Shown here: positions 33,198 to 46,883 of the stretch, in pieces
Position numbering within the stretch: position 1 is the stretch's first letter
How the letters are laid out: each line of letters begins with the position of its first letter
NCBI RefSeq assembly: GCF_024346355.1
Contig: NZ_JAGQCU010000001.1
Location: 1-64,000 of the forward strand
Length of the DNA: 64,000 nt
Origin: Cyanobium sp. ATX 6A2
GTDB taxonomy: Bacteria > Cyanobacteriota > Cyanobacteriia > PCC-6307 > Cyanobiaceae
Direction: 5' to 3'
Program-made: the position numbers and the translations under genes
Notes under the pieces: model-generated
Told to the model about the DNA's origin: nothing
Database searches by the model: none
What the model saw: only the letters and a program-made list of their open reading frames with translations

Positions 33198-36521
<3,324 letters not shown>

Positions 36522-36638
36522 GGGTTGAACCGGCCAAACGCGGCCAGCCTTGCACGATCCACCGCCCGCGGCGGTGACGATCGACCCGGGGACCCCGATC
36601 CGTATCGCTAACCTGGGTCCCATTGTTCCCACGCGTCC

Positions 36639-37274
36639 ATGAGCGAACTCCAGCGCCTCAAGGGGCTGCTGCCGCCGGAAATGCAGAGCTGGGTGTTCGT
36701 GGAAGCCGCGGCCTCGATCGATCCACCCCTGGTTGCGATCGAAGAGATCGGGCGGGATGAGATCGAGATCCAGGTGGACCTGGAGAAATGGGATGCCCTG
36801 GCACTCGACCACCGCAACCTGCTGTTCTGGCATGAGGTGGGCCGCATCCAGAACGACGCCGTGCCCCGCGATGGCTGGGAGATGGCTGCCCTGGCCATCG
36901 GCCTGGGCGGTGCCATCGGCGAGCTCTGGGTTCAGGACGGCCTGCTGCTGCTGATGGCCCTGGGGCTTTCGGGCTTCGCCGGTTACCGCCTCTACCTCAA
37001 GAACAACACCGAGAAGCGCCTGGCCGATGCCATCGCTGCCGACGAGCGGGCGATCGATCTGGCCTGTCGTTTCGGCTACACCCTCCCCAACGCCTACAAG
37101 AGCCTGGGCGGTGCCCTCAAGGAACTGGCCGAGCAGACCCGCAAAAAAAAGAAGCGCACCTTCTACGACGACCGCCTCGAAGCCCTGCGCAAGAGTGCCA
37201 GCCGGGCCCGGGCCGAAATGGCCCAGCAGCAGGGATCACGCGAGTCGGTCACCAGCGAGAACGTGTATGGCTGA
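36639..37274 (+). CDS. DUF3318 family membrane protein
   Basis: The product has 211 residues. The N-terminal half reads [50 protein letters not shown], a typical DUF3318 start. Two hydrophobic helices follow ([33 protein letters not shown], about 85-120), then a charged helical tail rich in K/R/E. It is probably thylakoid or plasma-membrane bound. Its stop overlaps the rsfS start by eight bases. Confidence 0.8.
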
Positions 37275-38251: not shown

Positions 38252-39223
38252 ATGAGCCTCTCCTCCAGCTTCGGTGCCGCCACCCGCACCGACATCCCGC
38301 CCCTGGAGGTACGGCTGCTGCGCGAGGGCATCGCCGAATCGCACCATCGCGTGCACGCGGCGGTGAGCGACGCCCGCGGTCGGGTGCTGATGCGGGCCGG
38401 CGACCCGCAACGGCTGACCTTCGTGCGCTCGGCCCTCAAACCCTTCCAGGCCTCGGTGTTCGTGGCCAGTGGCAGTGCCGATCAGGGGCAGGTGGGCGAG
38501 CGCGGGCTGGCGATCGCCTGTGCTTCCCACGCCGGCACGCCGGAGCACGCGCGCGAGGCCTTCAAGCTGCTCTGGAGCGCTGAACTGGACGCCGCCCAGC
38601 TCCTGTGTCCGGTGCCCGAGGGCCGCAGCAGCCCGCTGGAGCACAACTGCTCGGGCAAGCACGCGGCCTTCCTGGCCACCTGTCGGCGGATGGGCTGGAG
38701 CACCGAGAGCTACATGCACGCCGATCACCCCCTGCAGCAGGAGGTGCTCAAGCGGGTGGCCGAACTCCTGGCCCTGCCGGCAGCTGAGCTGGTGACAGCC
38801 CGTGACGACTGCGGCGTTCCCACCCTGCGCCTGCGCCTGGCGCAGATGGCCCTGCTGTTCGCCCACCTGGGCGCCGGCGAGCAGGCCCACCTGGAGCGCC
38901 TGAACCGCGCCATGCTTGCCCACCCCCACCTGGTGGCCGGCGAAGGACGCTTCGACACCGAACTGATGCGCCGCGGCCACGGCCAGGTGATCAGCAAGGG
39001 CGGCGCCGAGGGCATCCAGTGCCTCACCCGGGTGGGTGAGGGGCTGGGGCTGGCGATCAAGGTGGAGGACGGATCCGCCCGGGCCAAGCACGCGGTGGCC
39101 CTGCAGCTGCTGGAGCAGCTCGACTGGCTCACCCCGATGACCATTGAGGAGCTGCGCCAGCGCTTTCTCAACCCGGCCCCCCACCTGCGCCTGGAGGTGC
39201 TCGGCGAGCTGCGCTTCGACTGA
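38252..39223 (+). CDS. Asparaginase, AnsA (Rhizobium-type, PF06089)
   Basis: The 323-residue protein starts like the family (LEVRLLREGIAESHHRVHAAVSD), then FVRSALKPFQA (with the S-x-x-K motif), LAIACASHAGTPEH, LEHNCSGKHAAFLA and ARDDCGVPTLRL. This fold differs from E. coli-type asparaginases and uses the S-x-x-K pair with a Zn2+ near Cys/His. It probably hydrolyses L-asparagine to aspartate and ammonia. Its position ahead of the amide/carbamoyl genes at 41-47 kb may be meaningful. Confidence 0.88.
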   Translation: MSLSSSFGAATRTDIPPLEVRLLREGIAESHHRVHAAVSDARGRVLMRAGDPQRLTFVRSALKPFQASVFVASGSADQGQVGERGLAIACASHAGTPEHAREAFKLLWSAELDAAQLLCPVPEGRSSPLEHNCSGKHAAFLATCRRMGWSTESYMHADHPLQQEVLKRVAELLALPAAELVTARDDCGVPTLRLRLAQMALLFAHLGAGEQAHLERLNRAMLAHPHLVAGEGRFDTELMRRGHGQVISKGGAEGIQCLTRVGEGLGLAIKVEDGSARAKHAVALQLLEQLDWLTPMTIEELRQRFLNPAPHLRLEVLGELRFD

Positions 39224-39494: not shown

Positions 39495-39641
39495 ATGACC
39501 GAGCTGCAACAGGCCCTGTTGATCTTCGCGATCGGTGCCTTGGTCACCCTGGCCACGGTGATCATGATCGCCCGGGGCCATGCCCGCTGGCACGGCCGCG
39601 ATCCCTACGACGACCCCAACCGAGCCGCTGGCCATGACTGA
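39495..39641 (+). CDS. Small accessory membrane protein of the SSS symporter
   Basis: A 48-residue frame, MTELQQALLIFAIGALVTLA and onward, has one membrane helix (about 6-27) and a short basic/acidic tail (RWHGRDPYDDPNRAAGHD). Its stop overlaps the start of the symporter gene by eight bases, so the two are translationally coupled. Some sodium:solute symporters have such single-span partners encoded just upstream. The coupling and composition support a real gene; direct homology cannot be tested here. Confidence 0.7.
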   Translation: MTELQQALLIFAIGALVTLATVIMIARGHARWHGRDPYDDPNRAAGHD

Positions 39642-41055
39642 CGCTCCGCTGCTCGACGCCGGCATCGCCTGGTTCCTGCTGGTGGCCTTCTCGGTGCTCT
39701 GGATCGCCCTGGGGGTGTGGTGGGGCAAGCGCGGCAAGGGCGATGCCGACGACTACCTGCTGGCCGGCCGCAACATCGGCCTGGCCCTGAGCACGGCCAC
39801 CCTGATGGCCAGCTGGGTCACCGGCAACACCACCCTGGCGGCACCGGAGGTGGGTTACACCCTGGGCCTCTGGGGCATGCTCGGCTACGCCCTGGCGGGC
39901 CTGGGGCTGTTCCTGTTCGCGCCGCTGGCGATCCGCATCAAGCGGCTGATGCCCACGGCCCGCACCAGCGGCGACTTCGTGCGCCTCCGCTATGGCCGGG
40001 TGTGCTGGGCGGTGTTTCTGCTGATCACCATGGCCTACACCCTCGGCTTCCTGATCACCCAGGGGATGGGGGCAGGCCTGCTGCTGCAGGCCCTCTCCGG
40101 TTTCGACTACCGGCTGGGCATGGTCAGCGTGATCGGTGTCTCCACCACCTACACCCTGTTCGGCGGCATGCGCGGCGTGGTGGGCACCGACTTCATCCAG
40201 TCGCTGCTGATCATGGCCCTGCTGGTGCTGGTGGCGGTGCTGGGCTACGGGCGCATCAGCGTGGATGAGGTCTACGGGGCCCTGGCGGCCGAGCACCCGT
40301 CGCGGCTCAACATGCTGTTGCCGGCTGGCCTGCTGTTCGCCTGGAACACCGGCCTGTTCAGCATGGGTGAGGTGTTCCACAACAACATCTGGTGGAGCCG
40401 GGTGTTCGCCAGCCGGCCCTCGGTGGTGTTCCGCTCCTTCATTCTCGGTGGCCTGGCCTGGACCACCGTGCCGATCGTGACCGGCGCCATCGCCCTGATG
40501 GCCCTGGCCACGAACCTGGAGGTGCCCCAGGTGAACATGGTGTTTCCGCTGATCACCGCCCAGCTGCTGGGCAGCGGCGGCGCGATCGTGGTGTTCATCA
40601 TCATCTTCGCTTCGCTCACCTCCACCCTCGATTCGCTGCTCGCCGCCAGCGCCGACCTGATCGCCGAGGACGTGGTGGCCCACTGGCTGCGGCCCGGCAT
40701 CAGCGATGCCCAGATCCGACAGGCGGCGCGGCTGGTGGTGGTGGGCCTGGGGCTGCTCACGATGCTGCTCTCCTGGCAGTACTTCACCTCGATGTACCAG
40801 CTGCTGCTGTTCACCGGCGCCCTGGTGGCCTCCACGATCTGGCCGATCGCCATGGGGCTCTACTGGCCCCAGGCCAACCGCCAGGCGGCCACCGCCGCCA
40901 TGGTGCTGGGCTCGATCACCGGTCTGCTGGCCTATGGGCTGGTGGCTCCCTACTGCGCCGCCCTGGTGTCAGCGGCGGTGTCGGCCGGGGTGATGGGGCT
41001 CGGCAGCCACTGGAACCCGGAGCGGTTCGAGTGGCGCCTGCTGGCCGATCGCTGA
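39634..41055 (+). CDS. Sodium:solute symporter (SSS) family protein
   Basis: The 473-residue membrane protein has about 13 helices. SSS motifs: DDYLLAGRNIG (the G-R-N-x-G loop), WVTGNTTLAAPEVGYTLG, TLGFLITQGMGAG, TTYTLFGGMRGVVGTDFIQSLLI and SLTSTLDSLLAASADLIAEDV (Na+ site). It resembles the urea/DUR3-like or proline-like branch; the substrate is unknown. Downstream genes act on carbamoyl and amide groups, so a nitrogen-rich solute is possible (inference). Confidence 0.88.
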   Translation: MTDAPLLDAGIAWFLLVAFSVLWIALGVWWGKRGKGDADDYLLAGRNIGLALSTATLMASWVTGNTTLAAPEVGYTLGLWGMLGYALAGLGLFLFAPLAIRIKRLMPTARTSGDFVRLRYGRVCWAVFLLITMAYTLGFLITQGMGAGLLLQALSGFDYRLGMVSVIGVSTTYTLFGGMRGVVGTDFIQSLLIMALLVLVAVLGYGRISVDEVYGALAAEHPSRLNMLLPAGLLFAWNTGLFSMGEVFHNNIWWSRVFASRPSVVFRSFILGGLAWTTVPIVTGAIALMALATNLEVPQVNMVFPLITAQLLGSGGAIVVFIIIFASLTSTLDSLLAASADLIAEDVVAHWLRPGISDAQIRQAARLVVVGLGLLTMLLSWQYFTSMYQLLLFTGALVASTIWPIAMGLYWPQANRQAATAAMVLGSITGLLAYGLVAPYCAALVSAAVSAGVMGLGSHWNPERFEWRLLADR

Positions 41056-41527: not shown

Positions 41528-42631
41528 ATGCCGTTCAGCCCGCAAACCTGTCAGCCCAGAATCCGCTTCACCCGCCTGGGGCCGGATGTCTACGGCAATG
41601 CCCATCCCCAGGCCCTGCTGCGCTCCATCCGGGAGGACAGCGACGCCCTGCGGGAGCTCACCGAGCAGCACGTGCTCTCCACCAGCCAGTACAGCGCCGT
41701 GACGCTGCTGCAGCTGTTTCGCCTGGCGGCCAAGTTCGAGAGCAACCCGAAGCGCTACACCCGCCACAACAGCCCCCTGCGGGGCAAGATCCTGATCAAC
41801 GCCTTCTACGAGCCCAGCACCCGCACGCGCCTGTCCTTCGACAGCGCCTGGCACCGCCTCGGGGGCGACACGATCACGATCACCGACCGCAGCACCACCG
41901 GCATCGCCAAGGGGGAAACCCTGCGTGACGTGGCCGAGATGTTCAACAACTACGGCGACTGTGTGGTGCTGCGCGACACCCACGCCGAGGCCATCTACGA
42001 GATGACCCAGTCGCTGCGGATCCCGATCATCAATGCCGGCAACGGGATCGATGAGCATCCCACCCAGGCGATGGCGGATCTCTACACGATCTTCAAGTGG
42101 CGCCCCCAGCTCGTGGAGCGGGAGGTGCCCGCCGACCAGCGCATCCGCATCGGTGTGGTGGGCATTCCCAGCCGCATGCGCACGGTGCGCTCGCTGCTGC
42201 GCATCCTGGCCCAGTTCCCCACCATGGTGGAGGAGCTGGTGCTGTTCCACGATCCCGGCAGCGATCCGGGCGATGGCTACTTCGACCCGGGCCAGCGTGA
42301 GGAGCTGGAGGCGGCCGGACTGCGGGTGAGCACCAGCGACGACCTGCACGGCGCCGTGCCCGATCTCGATGTGATCTACATCAACGCCATCGCCTGGGTG
42401 GGCGACAGCTATGAGGTGCACGGCCGCAGCTTCCGGCTCACGGCCGATCTGCCCTACCGCAACGACGCCATCGTGCTCCACCCCCTGGCCCGTGGCCCCG
42501 AACTGGGCACCTGCCTGGATGAGACGGCCCACAACTGGTATTTCTCCCAGGCCCGGGGCGCGGTGTTCATCCGCATGGCCCTGCTCACCTGCATGGTGGA
42601 GCGCATTGACCAGGTGATGGACATCATCTGA
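41528..42631 (+). CDS. Divergent aspartate/ornithine transcarbamoylase-family enzyme
   Basis: The 367-residue protein keeps the carbamoyl-phosphate half of ATCase: EPSTRTRLSF (S97-T-R-T-R101), AKGETLRD (K128), EHPTQAMADLYTI (H177, Q180) and RMRTVRSL (R218/R221). The C-terminal part aligns (TAHNWYFSQARGAVFIRMALL), but the aspartate-binding R-x-Q-x-E-R segment of E. coli PyrB is replaced by NAIAWVGDSYEV (286-297), and H-P-L-P-R has become HPLAR. It also has a long N-terminal extension. I infer carbamoyl transfer to something other than aspartate. It is 28 bases ahead of an asnB-like gene. Confidence 0.8.
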   Translation: MPFSPQTCQPRIRFTRLGPDVYGNAHPQALLRSIREDSDALRELTEQHVLSTSQYSAVTLLQLFRLAAKFESNPKRYTRHNSPLRGKILINAFYEPSTRTRLSFDSAWHRLGGDTITITDRSTTGIAKGETLRDVAEMFNNYGDCVVLRDTHAEAIYEMTQSLRIPIINAGNGIDEHPTQAMADLYTIFKWRPQLVEREVPADQRIRIGVVGIPSRMRTVRSLLRILAQFPTMVEELVLFHDPGSDPGDGYFDPGQREELEAAGLRVSTSDDLHGAVPDLDVIYINAIAWVGDSYEVHGRSFRLTADLPYRNDAIVLHPLARGPELGTCLDETAHNWYFSQARGAVFIRMALLTCMVERIDQVMDII

Positions 42632-42659: not shown

Positions 42660-44729
42660 ATGTGCGGCATCGGCGGAATCTTCCAACGCAACGGTGATCA
42701 GCCCATCGACGAGCAGTTGCTCGTGAACATGGCGGCGATCCAGGTGCATCGCGGCCCCGATGGCTTCGGCGTGCGCAGCCTCCCGGGGCAGGGGGTGGGC
42801 TTCTGCCATGCCCGGCTGTCGATCATCGACCTCGACGCCAACCGGGCCCGCCAGCCGTTCGTGTCGGAGGACGGGCAGGTGCTGATGGCCCACAACGGCG
42901 AGTTCTACGACTTCCAGCGCATCCGCGCCGACCTCAGCGCCCGCGGCGTGCGCTTCACCAGCAAGAGCGATTCGGAGATCCTGCTGCGCCTGTATCAGGA
43001 GCGGGGCCTGGAGGCCACCCTGCCACTGCTGCGCGGTGAATTCGCCTTCGCCCTGTTCGATCGAGCGCGGGACGAGCTGCTGCTGGTGCGCGACCGCTTC
43101 GGGGTCAAACCCCAGTACTGGACCCTCACCGATGAGGGCCTGGTGTTCGGCTCAGAGCTCAAGGTGCTGTTCGCCCACCCCGGCGTGAAGCGGCAGTTCA
43201 GCTCCGAGGGCCTGTTCCACCAACTGATGCAGGCGGTGGTGCCCGGCAGCACGGCGTTCGAGGAGGTGCACCAGCTGCTGCCGGGCCACGTGCTCACGGT
43301 GCGGCGCCGTGGTGGCGACTTCGAGATCAGCGACCGCCCCTACTGGGACGTGAACTTCCCCCGCCAGGGGGAACGGGACGGGGCCCTGAGCGAAACCCAC
43401 CACATCGAGGCGGTGCGCGCCGCCCTGCTGGAGGCGGTGGAGGTGCGCATGGTGGCCGATGTACCGGTGGGCTGTTACCTCTCCGGCGGCATCGACTCCT
43501 GCTCAATCCTGGGATTGGCGGCGGCCGTGAGCCAGAACCCGGTGCGGGCCTTCACGATCGGCTTCGACGACGCCCGCTACGACGAGACCCCGATCGCCAC
43601 GGAGATGGCCGAGGCCACCGGCGCCGAGCAGCTGGTGATGCGGCTCTCGGGCAACGAGCTCTACGGCCACCTGGAGGACACCATCTGGCACGCCGAGCGC
43701 AGCATCTACAACACCCTGGCGGTGGCCAAGTTTCTGATGAGCCGGGAGGTCAACCGCTCCCACTACAAGGTGGTGATGACGGGTGAGGGCTCCGACGAGC
43801 TGTTCGGCGGCTACCCGGCCTTCCGCCGCGACATGTTCCTGCACGGCCTCGATGATCTGCCGGCAGCCGAGCGCCAGGAGTGGGAGCAGCTGCTGCAGCA
43901 GGCCAACGCCCTGGTGCAGGGGGCGATGCTGGCCGAGGAGCAGGTGCACGATCCCGCCCTGGAGCAGGTGGTGGGCTTCACCCCCAGCTGCCTGCAGCCC
44001 TGGCTGGCCTGCGCACCGCTGGTGCCCGAGCTGTTGGCCCCCGAGCACCGAGAGGCCTGCGCTGGTTACGACCCCGGCGCCGCCATCGCCGCCACCCTCG
44101 ATCCGGCCCAGCTGGAGGGACGCCACGCCCTCGACCGCGCCCAGTACGTGTGGATCAAGACGATGCTCGAAGGCCAGATCCTCACCTGGGGCGGCGACCG
44201 GGTCGACATGGCCCACGCCATGGAGGCCCGCCCGGCCTTCCTCGACCACCACCTGGCCGCCGTGGCCGTGCAGGTGCCGCCGGAGCTGCGCATCAAGGGC
44301 AAAACCGAGAAATACGTGCTGCGCGAAGCCATGCGCGGCCTGCTGCCGGAGGTGCTCTACAAGCGCGAGAAATTCGCCTTCATGGCCCCCCCGGCCCATG
44401 CCGACGCCCAGAAGCGGGCGGCGATGCAGACCCTGGCCGATCGCTATCTCAACACCGAGGCAATCGAGCGGGCCGGCCTGCTCGATGCGGCCGGTGTGCA
44501 GGCCCTGTTCGAGCGCCACGACCACCCCGACACAAGCGCCGCCCAGCGGGTGCAGCTCGATGCGGTGATCAACCACCTGATCTGCGTGCAGATCATGCAC
44601 CGGCTGTTCGTGGCCGCCGACCTGCCGGCCCAGGCCCGGCAGCGGGCCGATGCCCTGGGCTGGCGCCTGCACCAGGAGGAGCAGGCCGAGCCCGCCTACG
44701 CCCGCATCGGCATGTCGCCTGCAGGTTGA
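42660..44729 (+). CDS. AsnB-type glutamine-dependent amidotransferase (asparagine synthase family)
   Basis: The 689-residue enzyme begins MCGIGG with the nucleophilic Cys2 of the class II glutaminase, followed by HRGPDGFG and HNGEFYDF. The synthetase domain has the ATP-pyrophosphatase loop YLSGGIDSCS (274-282) and VVMTGEGSDELFGGYPAFRRDM. It is somewhat longer than classical AsnB, with an extended C-terminal region. It may make asparagine or amidate another carboxylate. It is 28 bases behind the transcarbamoylase-like gene, so a shared operon is likely. Its end overlaps the DUF1028 gene by 34 bases. Confidence 0.9.
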   Translation: MCGIGGIFQRNGDQPIDEQLLVNMAAIQVHRGPDGFGVRSLPGQGVGFCHARLSIIDLDANRARQPFVSEDGQVLMAHNGEFYDFQRIRADLSARGVRFTSKSDSEILLRLYQERGLEATLPLLRGEFAFALFDRARDELLLVRDRFGVKPQYWTLTDEGLVFGSELKVLFAHPGVKRQFSSEGLFHQLMQAVVPGSTAFEEVHQLLPGHVLTVRRRGGDFEISDRPYWDVNFPRQGERDGALSETHHIEAVRAALLEAVEVRMVADVPVGCYLSGGIDSCSILGLAAAVSQNPVRAFTIGFDDARYDETPIATEMAEATGAEQLVMRLSGNELYGHLEDTIWHAERSIYNTLAVAKFLMSREVNRSHYKVVMTGEGSDELFGGYPAFRRDMFLHGLDDLPAAERQEWEQLLQQANALVQGAMLAEEQVHDPALEQVVGFTPSCLQPWLACAPLVPELLAPEHREACAGYDPGAAIAATLDPAQLEGRHALDRAQYVWIKTMLEGQILTWGGDRVDMAHAMEARPAFLDHHLAAVAVQVPPELRIKGKTEKYVLREAMRGLLPEVLYKREKFAFMAPPAHADAQKRAAMQTLADRYLNTEAIERAGLLDAAGVQALFERHDHPDTSAAQRVQLDAVINHLICVQIMHRLFVAADLPAQARQRADALGWRLHQEEQAEPAYARIGMSPAG

Positions 44730-45421
44730 GGAGCGCACGGCTGAGCCAGGCCCAGGGTGGTGGGCAGGCCGGCCCGGAAGCCGGTGTAGTAGTCGTGCTC
44801 GGTGTGGTCGAGGATCTCGCGGAGGGCCACCAGGGGCTCGGGGTGGTGATCCACCCGGAAGTCGCAGTGGGGGTAGCTCTCCCGGTGCATCACCAACAGC
44901 GCTGCCGACTGGCGGCCACGATGGTCACCACCGTGGGACTCGCCAGCCTCCAGGGCCAGCAGCAGCCGCTCCTCCAGGCTCAGCCCCTGGCGCTCGGCGG
45001 CCATGTAGGCCTCGGCCATCGCCAGCAGCACCAGGTCGGAGGCCAGGAAGTTGCCGGCCACGGCGAAACCGGGATAGCAGCGGTGGGCGGCGATGCCAGC
45101 GCAGTCAGGCCCGGTCCAGGCGGCGCTGCGGCCCTCGGCATCCACCAGCATGACCTGGCGGCCATCGCGGCCCGGATCGTCGTGCAGCAGCGAGGCAAGC
45201 ACCTCCTCAGCCCCCTGCTCCCCCTCGCTCTGGCGCTGCAGTTGCTCGAGGCGATCGAGCCCCCAGGGCCCGAAATAAGGGTTGGTGTTGGCCTGGGTGG
45301 CCACAGCCCCCACCCCGGGGCGGGCATGGGGCACCAGGGAGCCCACGGCCAGATGCTTGGTGGCCACCCCAACGCCCGTCATGCCGCTCGCCGCATCCCA
45401 GGCCACGATCGAGAAGGTCAT
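44696..45421 (-). CDS. DUF1028 family Ntn-hydrolase-like protein
   Basis: The product has 241 residues. The start MTFSIVAWDAASGMTGVGVATKHLAVGS is the DUF1028 signature, continuing VPHARPGVGAVATQANTNP, GRSAAWTGPDC and GFAVAGNFLAS. The family has an Ntn-hydrolase-like fold; proposed roles include amide or peptide hydrolysis but activity is unproven. It points toward the asnB-like gene and is divergent from the carbamoylase, so it could take part in the same nitrogen chemistry. Confidence 0.88.
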   Translation of the reverse strand: MTFSIVAWDAASGMTGVGVATKHLAVGSLVPHARPGVGAVATQANTNPYFGPWGLDRLEQLQRQSEGEQGAEEVLASLLHDDPGRDGRQVMLVDAEGRSAAWTGPDCAGIAAHRCYPGFAVAGNFLASDLVLLAMAEAYMAAERQGLSLEERLLLALEAGESHGGDHRGRQSAALLVMHRESYPHCDFRVDHHPEPLVALREILDHTEHDYYTGFRAGLPTTLGLAQPCAPQPAGDMPMRA

Positions 45422-45623
45422 CGCGGTGTGCTCAGCGGGGCCTTCCGCCGTTCAAAGTTAATAGGGCCGATGATTGTCTAACGCCTGGACAGCTTCTGTC
45501 ACCAAGCACACCATTGCTGGAACGGGCGGAAAACCGGCCACACCGCTGCGGCCATCGCTCCGCCTCCTCCACCCACCGCTCTTCGCTCTCCGCCCCCAAC
45601 CCCGCACAGCCGCTCCAACGCCC

Positions 45624-46883
45624 ATGAGCCAGCTCCTCACCGCCACACCCACCGACCTGGCCGCTGACGGTGCCCGCCTGGCCCGCAGCCTCGAGGAGCT
45701 CGGACAGATCGGCCGCCTGCCCTCCGGAGCCGTGCGGCGGCTGGCCTTCAGCGAGGAGGACCGGGCTGCCCGTGCCCTGGTGCATGGCTGGATGGAGGAG
45801 GCGGGCATGGCGGTGCGCGTCGACGCCGCCGGCAACCTGATCGGTCGCTACGACGGGCTCCGCCCCGGGGCCCCGGTGATGGCCACCGGATCGCACATCG
45901 ACACGGTGCCGGAGGGGGGGCTCTATGACGGTGCCCTTGGCGTGCTGGGCGGTATCGAGGTGGTGCGGGTGCTGGCCGAACACCAGCTGCGCCTGCAGCA
46001 CCCCATTGAGGTGATCGCCTTCGCCGACGAGGAGAGCACCATGGTGGGCTGCAAGTCGATGGTGGGGCACGCCTCCGAGGATCCCGACAGCTACGCCACA
46101 GCCCTGGGGGTGCCGATCCAGGAGGGGCTGGCCAGCATCGGCGGCGACTGGCAGCAGCGCCCCGGCGCCCGCCGCAGCCGCCAGGAGATTGCCGCCTTCC
46201 TGGAGCTGCATGTGGAGCAGGGCGGCGTGCTGGAGGCGGTGGGCAAGCAGATCGGCGTGGTGGAGGGGGTGGTGGGTCAGCAGCGCTACATCATCCGCGT
46301 CAGCGGCCAGGCCAACCACGCCGGCACCACGCCGATGGAGATGCGCCGCGACGCCCTCACCACCGCCGCCCAGATCATCCTGGCGATCGAGGACATGGCC
46401 CTGCACTACCCCGGCGATCCGGTGGCCACGGTGGGCAAGCTCACGGTGTGGCCCAACGCGGCCAACATCGTGCCCGGCCAGGTGGAGTTCAGCCTCGACA
46501 TGCGCGATCTCTCCCATGACGTGATCGACCACATGAAGGCCCAGCTGGAGCGCCGCATCGAGACGATCGCCGTGGCCCGACGCACGCGCATCGCCATGAC
46601 GCCCCAGTTCGTGGTGGATCCCAGCCCAGCCGATCCGATGGTGCAGGAGGTGATCAGTGAGACCTGCGCCGACCTCGGCCTCAGCTACACCCACCTGCCC
46701 AGCCGCGCCAGCCACGACGCCCAGGAACTGGGGCGGCTCACGGCCATGGGCATGATCTTCGTGCCCAGCCGCGACGGCGTGTCGCACTCCGCCGATGAGT
46801 TCACCTCGCCCCAGCAGTGCGAGCAGGGTGTGAACGTACTGCTGCACAGCCTGATCCGCCTCGATGCCAGCCTCTCGGGCTGA
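45624..46883 (+). CDS. Zn-dependent N-carbamoyl-amino-acid / allantoate amidohydrolase
   Basis: The 419-residue protein is an M20-like hydantoinase/carbamoylase. Metal ligands are visible in GSHIDTVPEGGLYDGALG (H91, D102), FADEESTMVGCKSMVG (E136/E137), LELHVEQGGVLE (His) and HSADEF (C-terminal His). A dimerisation domain (GQANHAGTTPMEMRRDAL) interrupts the catalytic one. Members cleave N-carbamoyl-L-amino acids, allantoate or ureidoglycine-type compounds, releasing CO2 and ammonia. A longer upstream frame exists but homology begins after ATG 45624. It precedes the GMC gene by 13 bases. Confidence 0.9.
   Translation: MSQLLTATPTDLAADGARLARSLEELGQIGRLPSGAVRRLAFSEEDRAARALVHGWMEEAGMAVRVDAAGNLIGRYDGLRPGAPVMATGSHIDTVPEGGLYDGALGVLGGIEVVRVLAEHQLRLQHPIEVIAFADEESTMVGCKSMVGHASEDPDSYATALGVPIQEGLASIGGDWQQRPGARRSRQEIAAFLELHVEQGGVLEAVGKQIGVVEGVVGQQRYIIRVSGQANHAGTTPMEMRRDALTTAAQIILAIEDMALHYPGDPVATVGKLTVWPNAANIVPGQVEFSLDMRDLSHDVIDHMKAQLERRIETIAVARRTRIAMTPQFVVDPSPADPMVQEVISETCADLGLSYTHLPSRASHDAQELGRLTAMGMIFVPSRDGVSHSADEFTSPQQCEQGVNVLLHSLIRLDASLSG

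Follow-up and report, generated by a model that had tools for sequence, protein, structure and literature searches.

A conserved transcarbamoylase-amidotransferase gene cassette of picocyanobacteria and gammaproteobacteria with a probable role in carbamoyl-glutamine amide metabolism

The window (the whole 64,000-nucleotide stretch of Cyanobium DNA that was analysed) encodes a transcarbamoylase that resembles PyrB, and the question raised by this locus is which amine the enzyme carbamoylates. The predicted protein has 367 amino acids and both transcarbamoylase domains (PF02729, 142.9 bits; PF00185, 39.9 bits). An earlier note on this DNA had claimed that the protein keeps the site for carbamoyl phosphate, has lost the segment that binds aspartate, and should accept a different amine. 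Each motif named in that note lies at its given place in the frame, including STRTR (residues 97 to 101), K128, HPTQ (177 to 180), RMRTVRSL (216 to 223), and HPLAR (318 to 322). The segment at residues 286 to 297 reads NAIAWVGDSYEV. The genes discussed below are collected in Table 1.

Table 1. Transcarbamoylase gene of the window and the neighbouring cassette genes
Feature	Coordinates	Strand	Evidence and proposed role
SSF sodium/solute symporter	39580..41055	+	PF00474, 74.5 bits; start at 39580 or 39634; possible solute import or recovery
Transcarbamoylase of a separate family	41528..42631	+	PF02729 and PF00185, residues, tree, and model; proposed glutamine N-alpha-carbamoyltransferase
AsnB-like glutamine-dependent amidotransferase	42660..44729	+	PF00733, 312.1 bits; proposed amidation of the alpha-carboxyl of N-carbamoyl-glutamine
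DUF1028 protein	44696..45421	-	PF06267, 224.5 bits; solved relative 2imh; proposed 1-amide amidase
HyuC, M20-family carbamoylase	45621..46883	+	TIGR01879; start at TTG 45474 or ATG 45621; proposed carbamoyl removal

To compare residues, 44 family members were aligned by MAFFT with 25 PyrBs and 12 ArgFs, leaving out YgeW. Two proteins whose top match is the window protein (L017 and L018) fall among the cyanobacterial PyrBs and were counted as PyrB. The equivalents of E. coli ATCase S52, T53, R54, T55, K84, R105, H134, Q137, and R167 are kept in all 44 members, so that the carbamoyl-phosphate site, judged by its invariant residues, is predicted to be intact as the note had proposed. The replacement of the aspartate-binding segment was also borne out, since R229, Q231, and R234 occur in none of the 44 members and E233 in 3, whereas all four are present in 25/25 PyrBs. 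At these positions the family has A287 (41/44), A289 (40/44), V291 (35/44), and a gap (44/44), respectively. In addition, the equivalent of S80 is G125 in 44/44 members, a point absent from the earlier note. N286 is invariant in the family, and ArgF mostly has D there. Column identity averages 70% across 33 diverse family members, which indicates that the replaced loop is a conserved family trait and not a product of chance. In ATCase, R229 and Q231 hold aspartate, and R167 holds a carboxylate. The residue pattern would fit an alpha-amino acid that lacks a carboxylate in its side chain. Acceptance of a different amine is inferred from the lost aspartate residues together with the gene context, without an enzyme assay or complementation.

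An AlphaFold2 model of the window transcarbamoylase had a pLDDT of 84.2 and a pTM of 0.87, with residues 1 to 24 and 96 to 101 below 50. Its best structural matches are ATCases (Z 33.9; rmsd 2.3 over 312 residues). The expectation of a transcarbamoylase fold with a carbamoyl-phosphate site was met, with loop 96-101 modelled at a pLDDT of <50.

Of the NCBIfam models, 17 transcarbamoylase models match the window protein, and in all 17 cases the score is below the model's own cut-off. The top model is TIGR00670, aspartate carbamoyltransferase (183.3 bits versus a cut-off of 236.95), and the ornithine transcarbamoylase model TIGR00658 gave 94.7 bits versus 280.85. The NCBIfam models for putrescine transcarbamoylase (70 versus 500), N-acetylornithine transcarbamoylase (35.8 versus 288), and YgeW (33.6 to 36.8 versus 453 to 500) were not passed either. 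In the phylogenetic analysis, the 37 family rows group in a single clade (100/100, with a stem of 3.07 changes per column) apart from the sampled PyrBs and ArgFs. Its join to the E. coli-type PyrBs is weak (85/32), and the deep root of the family is thus left open. In the drawn tree, the cyanobacterial family rows lie among gammaproteobacterial rows, which suggests horizontal transfer, within the limits set by a root placed only at the midpoint.

A second, canonical pyrB, which the earlier note had said should be sought, was found in the genome as a PyrB-like gene (G000:C5), along with an ArgF-like gene (G000:C9). Six other family-bearing genomes have three OTCace-domain genes apiece. Plasmid relatives were considered and rejected: the DNA matches were two, both short and chance-like, and the protein matches were all below 60% identity. 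Among the 40 listed of 150 plasmid protein matches, identities were about 28 to 33%, and the annotated ones are mostly called PyrB.

The family resembles PyrB in its fold, its carbamoyl-phosphate residues, and its K84, R167, and R269, but it lacks R229, Q231, and R234, has G in place of S80, scores below the cut-offs, forms its own clade, and is encoded next to an AsnB-like gene. With ArgF and ArgI it shares the carbamoyl-phosphate residues and the length of the 286-292 loop (YINAIAWVGD in the window protein and YTDVWVSMGE in E. coli ArgI), but S-M-G is missing, the R167 equivalent is R and not N, and the family lies on the opposite side of the tree. If the protein were a PyrB isozyme with carbamoyl-aspartate as its product, this would account for the ATCase fold and for TIGR00670 as the top NCBIfam match. 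However, this reading is disfavoured by the loss of R229 and Q231 in 44/44 members, the separate clade, the score below the TIGR00670 cut-off, and the separate PyrB paralogue, and it retains hardly any credibility.

The start of the AsnB-like gene is 28 bases past the transcarbamoylase stop. The AsnB-like protein passed the asparagine synthase model TIGR01536 (419.1 bits; cut-off, 267.1) and failed the models of osmolyte and exopolysaccharide amidotransferases, TIGR03104 (308.9 versus 570.1) and TIGR03108 (396 versus 816.9). HyuC passed both TIGR01879 for hydantoinase/carbamoylase (414.4 bits; cut-off, 204) and PRK09290.1-5, named allantoate amidohydrolase (428.1 bits; cut-off, 399), and did not pass the ErtE model; its nearest solved relative is 3n5f, an N-carbamoyl-L-amino acid hydrolase. 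The NCBIfam names of these two proteins neither show nor exclude the steps proposed below. DUF1028 belongs to the N-terminal-nucleophile hydrolases, and DUF1028 proteins were not named anywhere in the literature searched. Two further genes of the window were observed near the cassette. A CarB-like carbamoyl-phosphate synthase large subunit, named from sequence and homology, is encoded at 33198-36833 on the minus strand, about 5 kb from the transcarbamoylase, and stays nearby in 8 of 12 cyanobacterial relatives. An L-asparaginase II gene (38252-39223, plus strand; PF06089, 364 bits) lies 5' of the symporter gene and is near in 8/12 cyanobacterial relatives.

The conservation of the cassette was examined in several sets of loci. 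A genome_contigs scan found 195 relatives, of which 80 were kept, and 18 further gammaproteobacterial loci are near copies from the 25 class genomes described below, the others being already included, partial, or distant. Adjacency of AsnB was counted in loci with at least 700 nt downstream, and the locus sets overlap (L034 and L052, for example, represent the same contig). In 119/121 such loci, the gene following the transcarbamoylase gene is AsnB-like. On the same strand, it is next in 12/12 cyanobacterial relatives, 76/77 genome_contigs loci, 15/16 loci of the family of genome G426, and 16/16 further gammaproteobacterial loci. Of the two loci with no AsnB counted, L096 is on the same contig as L044, where tblastn picked up the first part of AsnB, in two pieces, about 90 bases downstream; the other is L181. 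The SSF symporter gene is upstream in 12/12 cyanobacterial relatives, 55/78 genome_contigs loci, 3/16 loci of G426's family, and 16/18 further gammaproteobacterial loci; the 23 genome_contigs loci without it are all of the Prochlorococcus type. Among loci that reach 6 kb or more to each side (long-flank loci), HyuC and a second hydrolase are both nearby in 57 of 95. This hydrolase is DUF1028 in 11/11 cyanobacterial relatives and 19/56 genome_contigs loci, and an isochorismatase-like protein (Iso) in 15/16 loci of G426's family and 12/12 further gammaproteobacterial loci. Since AsnB is nearly universal while SSF, HyuC, and the second hydrolase vary, the transcarbamoylase and AsnB genes are the constant core of the cassette. 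The complete order HyuC-Iso-SSF-TCase-AsnB was found in 14 of the 18 further gammaproteobacterial loci, with two lacking SSF and two running off the contig.

The Iso protein belongs to PF00857, and its top NCBIfam matches, biuret amidohydrolase and RutB, are far below cut-off. Six of 32 Iso frames are incomplete; the K and C motifs of cysteine hydrolases are present in all 26 whole frames and the D motif in 23 of them. A single combined pattern matched none of the 32 frames. The DUF1028 N-terminus reads [MV]TFSI in 39/44 loci. One family member (62%; L181 8423-9427, minus strand, genome G516) lies in an 18-kb locus in which genes for AsnB, HyuC, Iso, and a symporter all went undetected.

The hosts of the kept relatives include the cyanobacteria Cyanobium, Synechococcus, and Prochlorococcus and the gammaproteobacteria Idiomarina, Aliidiomarina, Pseudidiomarina, Kangiella, Pleionea, Aliikangiella, Pseudoalteromonas, and Ketobacter. 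The gene was found in 66 of 400 genomes sampled from the window's family (10/59 genera), in 25 of 369 sampled from the gammaproteobacterial class of genome G102, and in 41 of 47 genomes of G426's family, one of them partial. Two of the 25 class genomes, G267 and G377 (270 and 264 bits), have a distant form alone, and a near copy accompanies a distant one in G351. The distant form is 38 to 39% identical (L232 7212-8363, minus strand, G351:C2:413238-414251; L233 3860-4873, minus strand, G267); its STRTR motif is changed, reading DNSRSHTR in L232, and no cassette gene was detected nearby. Two family copies were seen in the cyanobacterial genome G641 (G641:C1:1682796-1683860 and 2535827-2536894).

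G099, G100, and G104 have no strong PF00733 match other than the cassette AsnB. Other asparagine routes were found in six genomes, with GatB in G000, G104, and G426 and AsnA in G099, G100, and G101; AsnA was not found in G102 or G103. The idea that the cassette AsnB is the cell's sole source of asparagine is weakened and remains undecided for G102 and G103.

The purple sulfur bacterium Ectothiorhodospira marismortui accumulates carbamoyl-glutamine amide (CGA), an osmolyte described in 1991 (PMC1224877, available in part). CGA carries two masks, which a transcarbamoylase and a glutamine-dependent amidotransferase would make. The cassette encodes such a pair together, and which carboxyl is amidated is not shown. 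The substrate of the transcarbamoylase is inferred to be an alpha-amino acid whose side chain is uncharged, most likely L-glutamine, to which the gene cassette, absent from the earlier note, points. The choice of glutamine over asparagine or another amino acid cannot be read from the protein itself and is inferred from the known molecule CGA. In the proposed pathway, the transcarbamoylase would convert carbamoyl phosphate and glutamine to N-alpha-carbamoyl-glutamine, and the AsnB-like enzyme would then amidate its alpha-carboxyl to give CGA. For recycling, an amidase (DUF1028 in cyanobacteria and the isochorismatase-like cysteine hydrolase in many gammaproteobacteria) may strip the amide and HyuC the carbamoyl mask, which together would return glutamine, CO2, and ammonia, and the SSF symporter may import or recover the solute. 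The family, its conserved cassette, and its changed active site were observed, as was its presence in genomes that fit Ectothiorhodospira. On these grounds, the cassette probably makes and recycles CGA; the substrate, reaction order, product, direction of transport, role, and species names are all inferred and unassayed.

Six of the 369 class genomes have reaction-centre genes, and two of these six, G426 and G210, have the family. Both G426 (2.6 Mb; cassette locus with 68.8% and reaction-centre locus with 64.8% G+C) and G477 (2.8 Mb; cassette locus with 68.5% G+C) carry the cassette, and these two loci share 93.5% identity across 17.4 kb. E. marismortui DSM 4180 (2.62 Mb, 68.2%) and E. mobilis DSM 237 (2.80 Mb, 68.3%) have an ANI of 92.6, according to the accessible part of PMC8877833. 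By size, locus G+C, and mutual identity, G426 and G477 are inferred to fit these two species, and G210, with 55.3% G+C in its cassette locus, is inferred to fit Ectothiorhodosinus mongolicus (55.6%). The genome inferred to fit the species known to produce CGA carries a cassette that would make the same compound, while the cassette extends beyond this producer to cyanobacteria and many other gammaproteobacteria. No gene for CGA was named in the literature searched, including PMC7824335 and PMC1224877; since these sources were partial and mostly excluded subscription journals, a published pathway cannot be excluded.

The surroundings of the cassette in G426's family include a sucrose synthase gene within 9 kb in 12/16 loci, a PfkB sugar kinase gene in 10/16, and a MarR gene in 14/16. 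Sucrose synthase and PfkB genes were near the cassette in 0/12 further gammaproteobacterial and 0/11 cyanobacterial long-flank loci, and the MarR genes passed the cut-off of no NCBIfam model. EctC was not found in G426 in a search without a working positive control, so this carries little weight. Thioalkalivibrio presumably falls within G426's family. Betaine and sucrose are the only Thioalkalivibrio osmolytes named in the available parts of PMC9062515 and PMC3368412. Table 2 of the PMC9062515 salt transcriptome has induced nitrogen genes, including GlnA, and none of the cassette genes; a search of the accessible text for carbamoyl and asparagine also gave no cassette gene, and the full gene list was not covered. 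A MarR repressor, an AsnB-like amidotransferase, and an N-acylating enzyme are likewise combined in the operon of Pseudomonas for the osmolyte N-acetylglutaminylglutamine amide (NAGGN), as far as PMC8070244 was accessible. Like asnO-ngg of that operon, the cassette has an N-masking enzyme and an AsnB-like amidotransferase acting, by proposal, on a glutamine carboxyl, with MarR nearby. Unlike in the NAGGN operon, the mask would be carbamoyl added by a transcarbamoylase and not acetyl added by a GNAT enzyme, and the score of the AsnB-like protein falls short of the TIGR03104 cut-off.

CGA as the product is further favoured by the frequency of the gene in G426's family relative to the class, by the sucrose synthase and MarR genes near the cassette there, by the likeness to the NAGGN operon, and by the other asparagine routes in six genomes. 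Several points stand against it, among them the Thioalkalivibrio data and the lack of nearby sucrose synthase genes outside G426's family. The cassette occurs far more broadly than CGA has been reported, and NCBIfam calls the AsnB-like protein an asparagine synthase and gives allantoate amidohydrolase as the top passing model of HyuC. In addition, 37 of the 56 long-flank genome_contigs loci have no second hydrolase, 19 have no HyuC, and 18 have HyuC alone. The same logic might act on another amino acid, giving an N-carbamoyl amide of asparagine, alanine, or another amino acid and not, or not only, CGA. This is unlikely but deserves weight, because the sequence fixes the loss of the aspartate residues and not the new side chain and the hosts span a much greater diversity than the one known producer of CGA; on the other side, the presumed producer has a single family copy with AsnB beside it.

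The role of the product and the direction of the pathway allow two further readings. A product serving chiefly as a soluble nitrogen reserve, stored at nitrogen plenty and later hydrolysed, perhaps with the same chemistry, appears improbable given the known osmolyte role of CGA in E. marismortui (in the part of PMC1224877 available) and the sucrose synthase and MarR genes near the cassette in G426's family. However, by calculation CGA would contain four nitrogens for every six carbons, hydrolases accompany the synthetic genes in many loci, and picocyanobacteria of the low-salt range, such as Cyanobium, have the cassette. In Prochlorococcus a solute so rich in nitrogen would not be expected, and the nitrogen-reserve role therefore stays open. 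A catabolic cassette, in which HyuC, the second hydrolase, and a reversed transcarbamoylase break down an imported ureido compound whose nitrogen is re-used by AsnB, is very doubtful. Transcarbamoylases can in principle run in either direction, and the allantoate amidohydrolase name of the HyuC model and the presence of an SSF importer would suit such a cassette, but the transcarbamoylase-AsnB pair is constant while the hydrolases and symporter vary, and AsnB consumes ATP.

If synthesis and recycling of CGA is the correct reading, the cassette would be the gene set for an osmolyte known since 1991 whose genes were not found in the literature searched. It would represent a known osmolyte logic in which a transcarbamoylase replaces the acyltransferase, and two predictions would follow, namely, that glutamine N-alpha-carbamoyltransferase exists as a new activity and that DUF1028 proteins have a role. 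A four-nitrogen solute that metabolomics could seek would then be present in some Synechococcus, Prochlorococcus, and marine gammaproteobacteria (calculated C6H12N4O3; [M+H]+ 189.098). Whether CGA is a nitrogen-rich solute that is common in the sea, present in Synechococcus, Prochlorococcus, and marine and haloalkaliphilic gammaproteobacteria, is an evenly balanced question. The labels "pyrB" and "asparagine synthase" can mislead in genomes with the cassette.

A small protein of about 170 amino acids, with a likely signal and membrane segment, is encoded 5' of the symporter gene in 32 gammaproteobacterial loci; one example was tested and had no NCBIfam match. Its gene lies about 2.0 to 2.2 kb upstream of the transcarbamoylase start in loci L086 to L125 (for example, L086).
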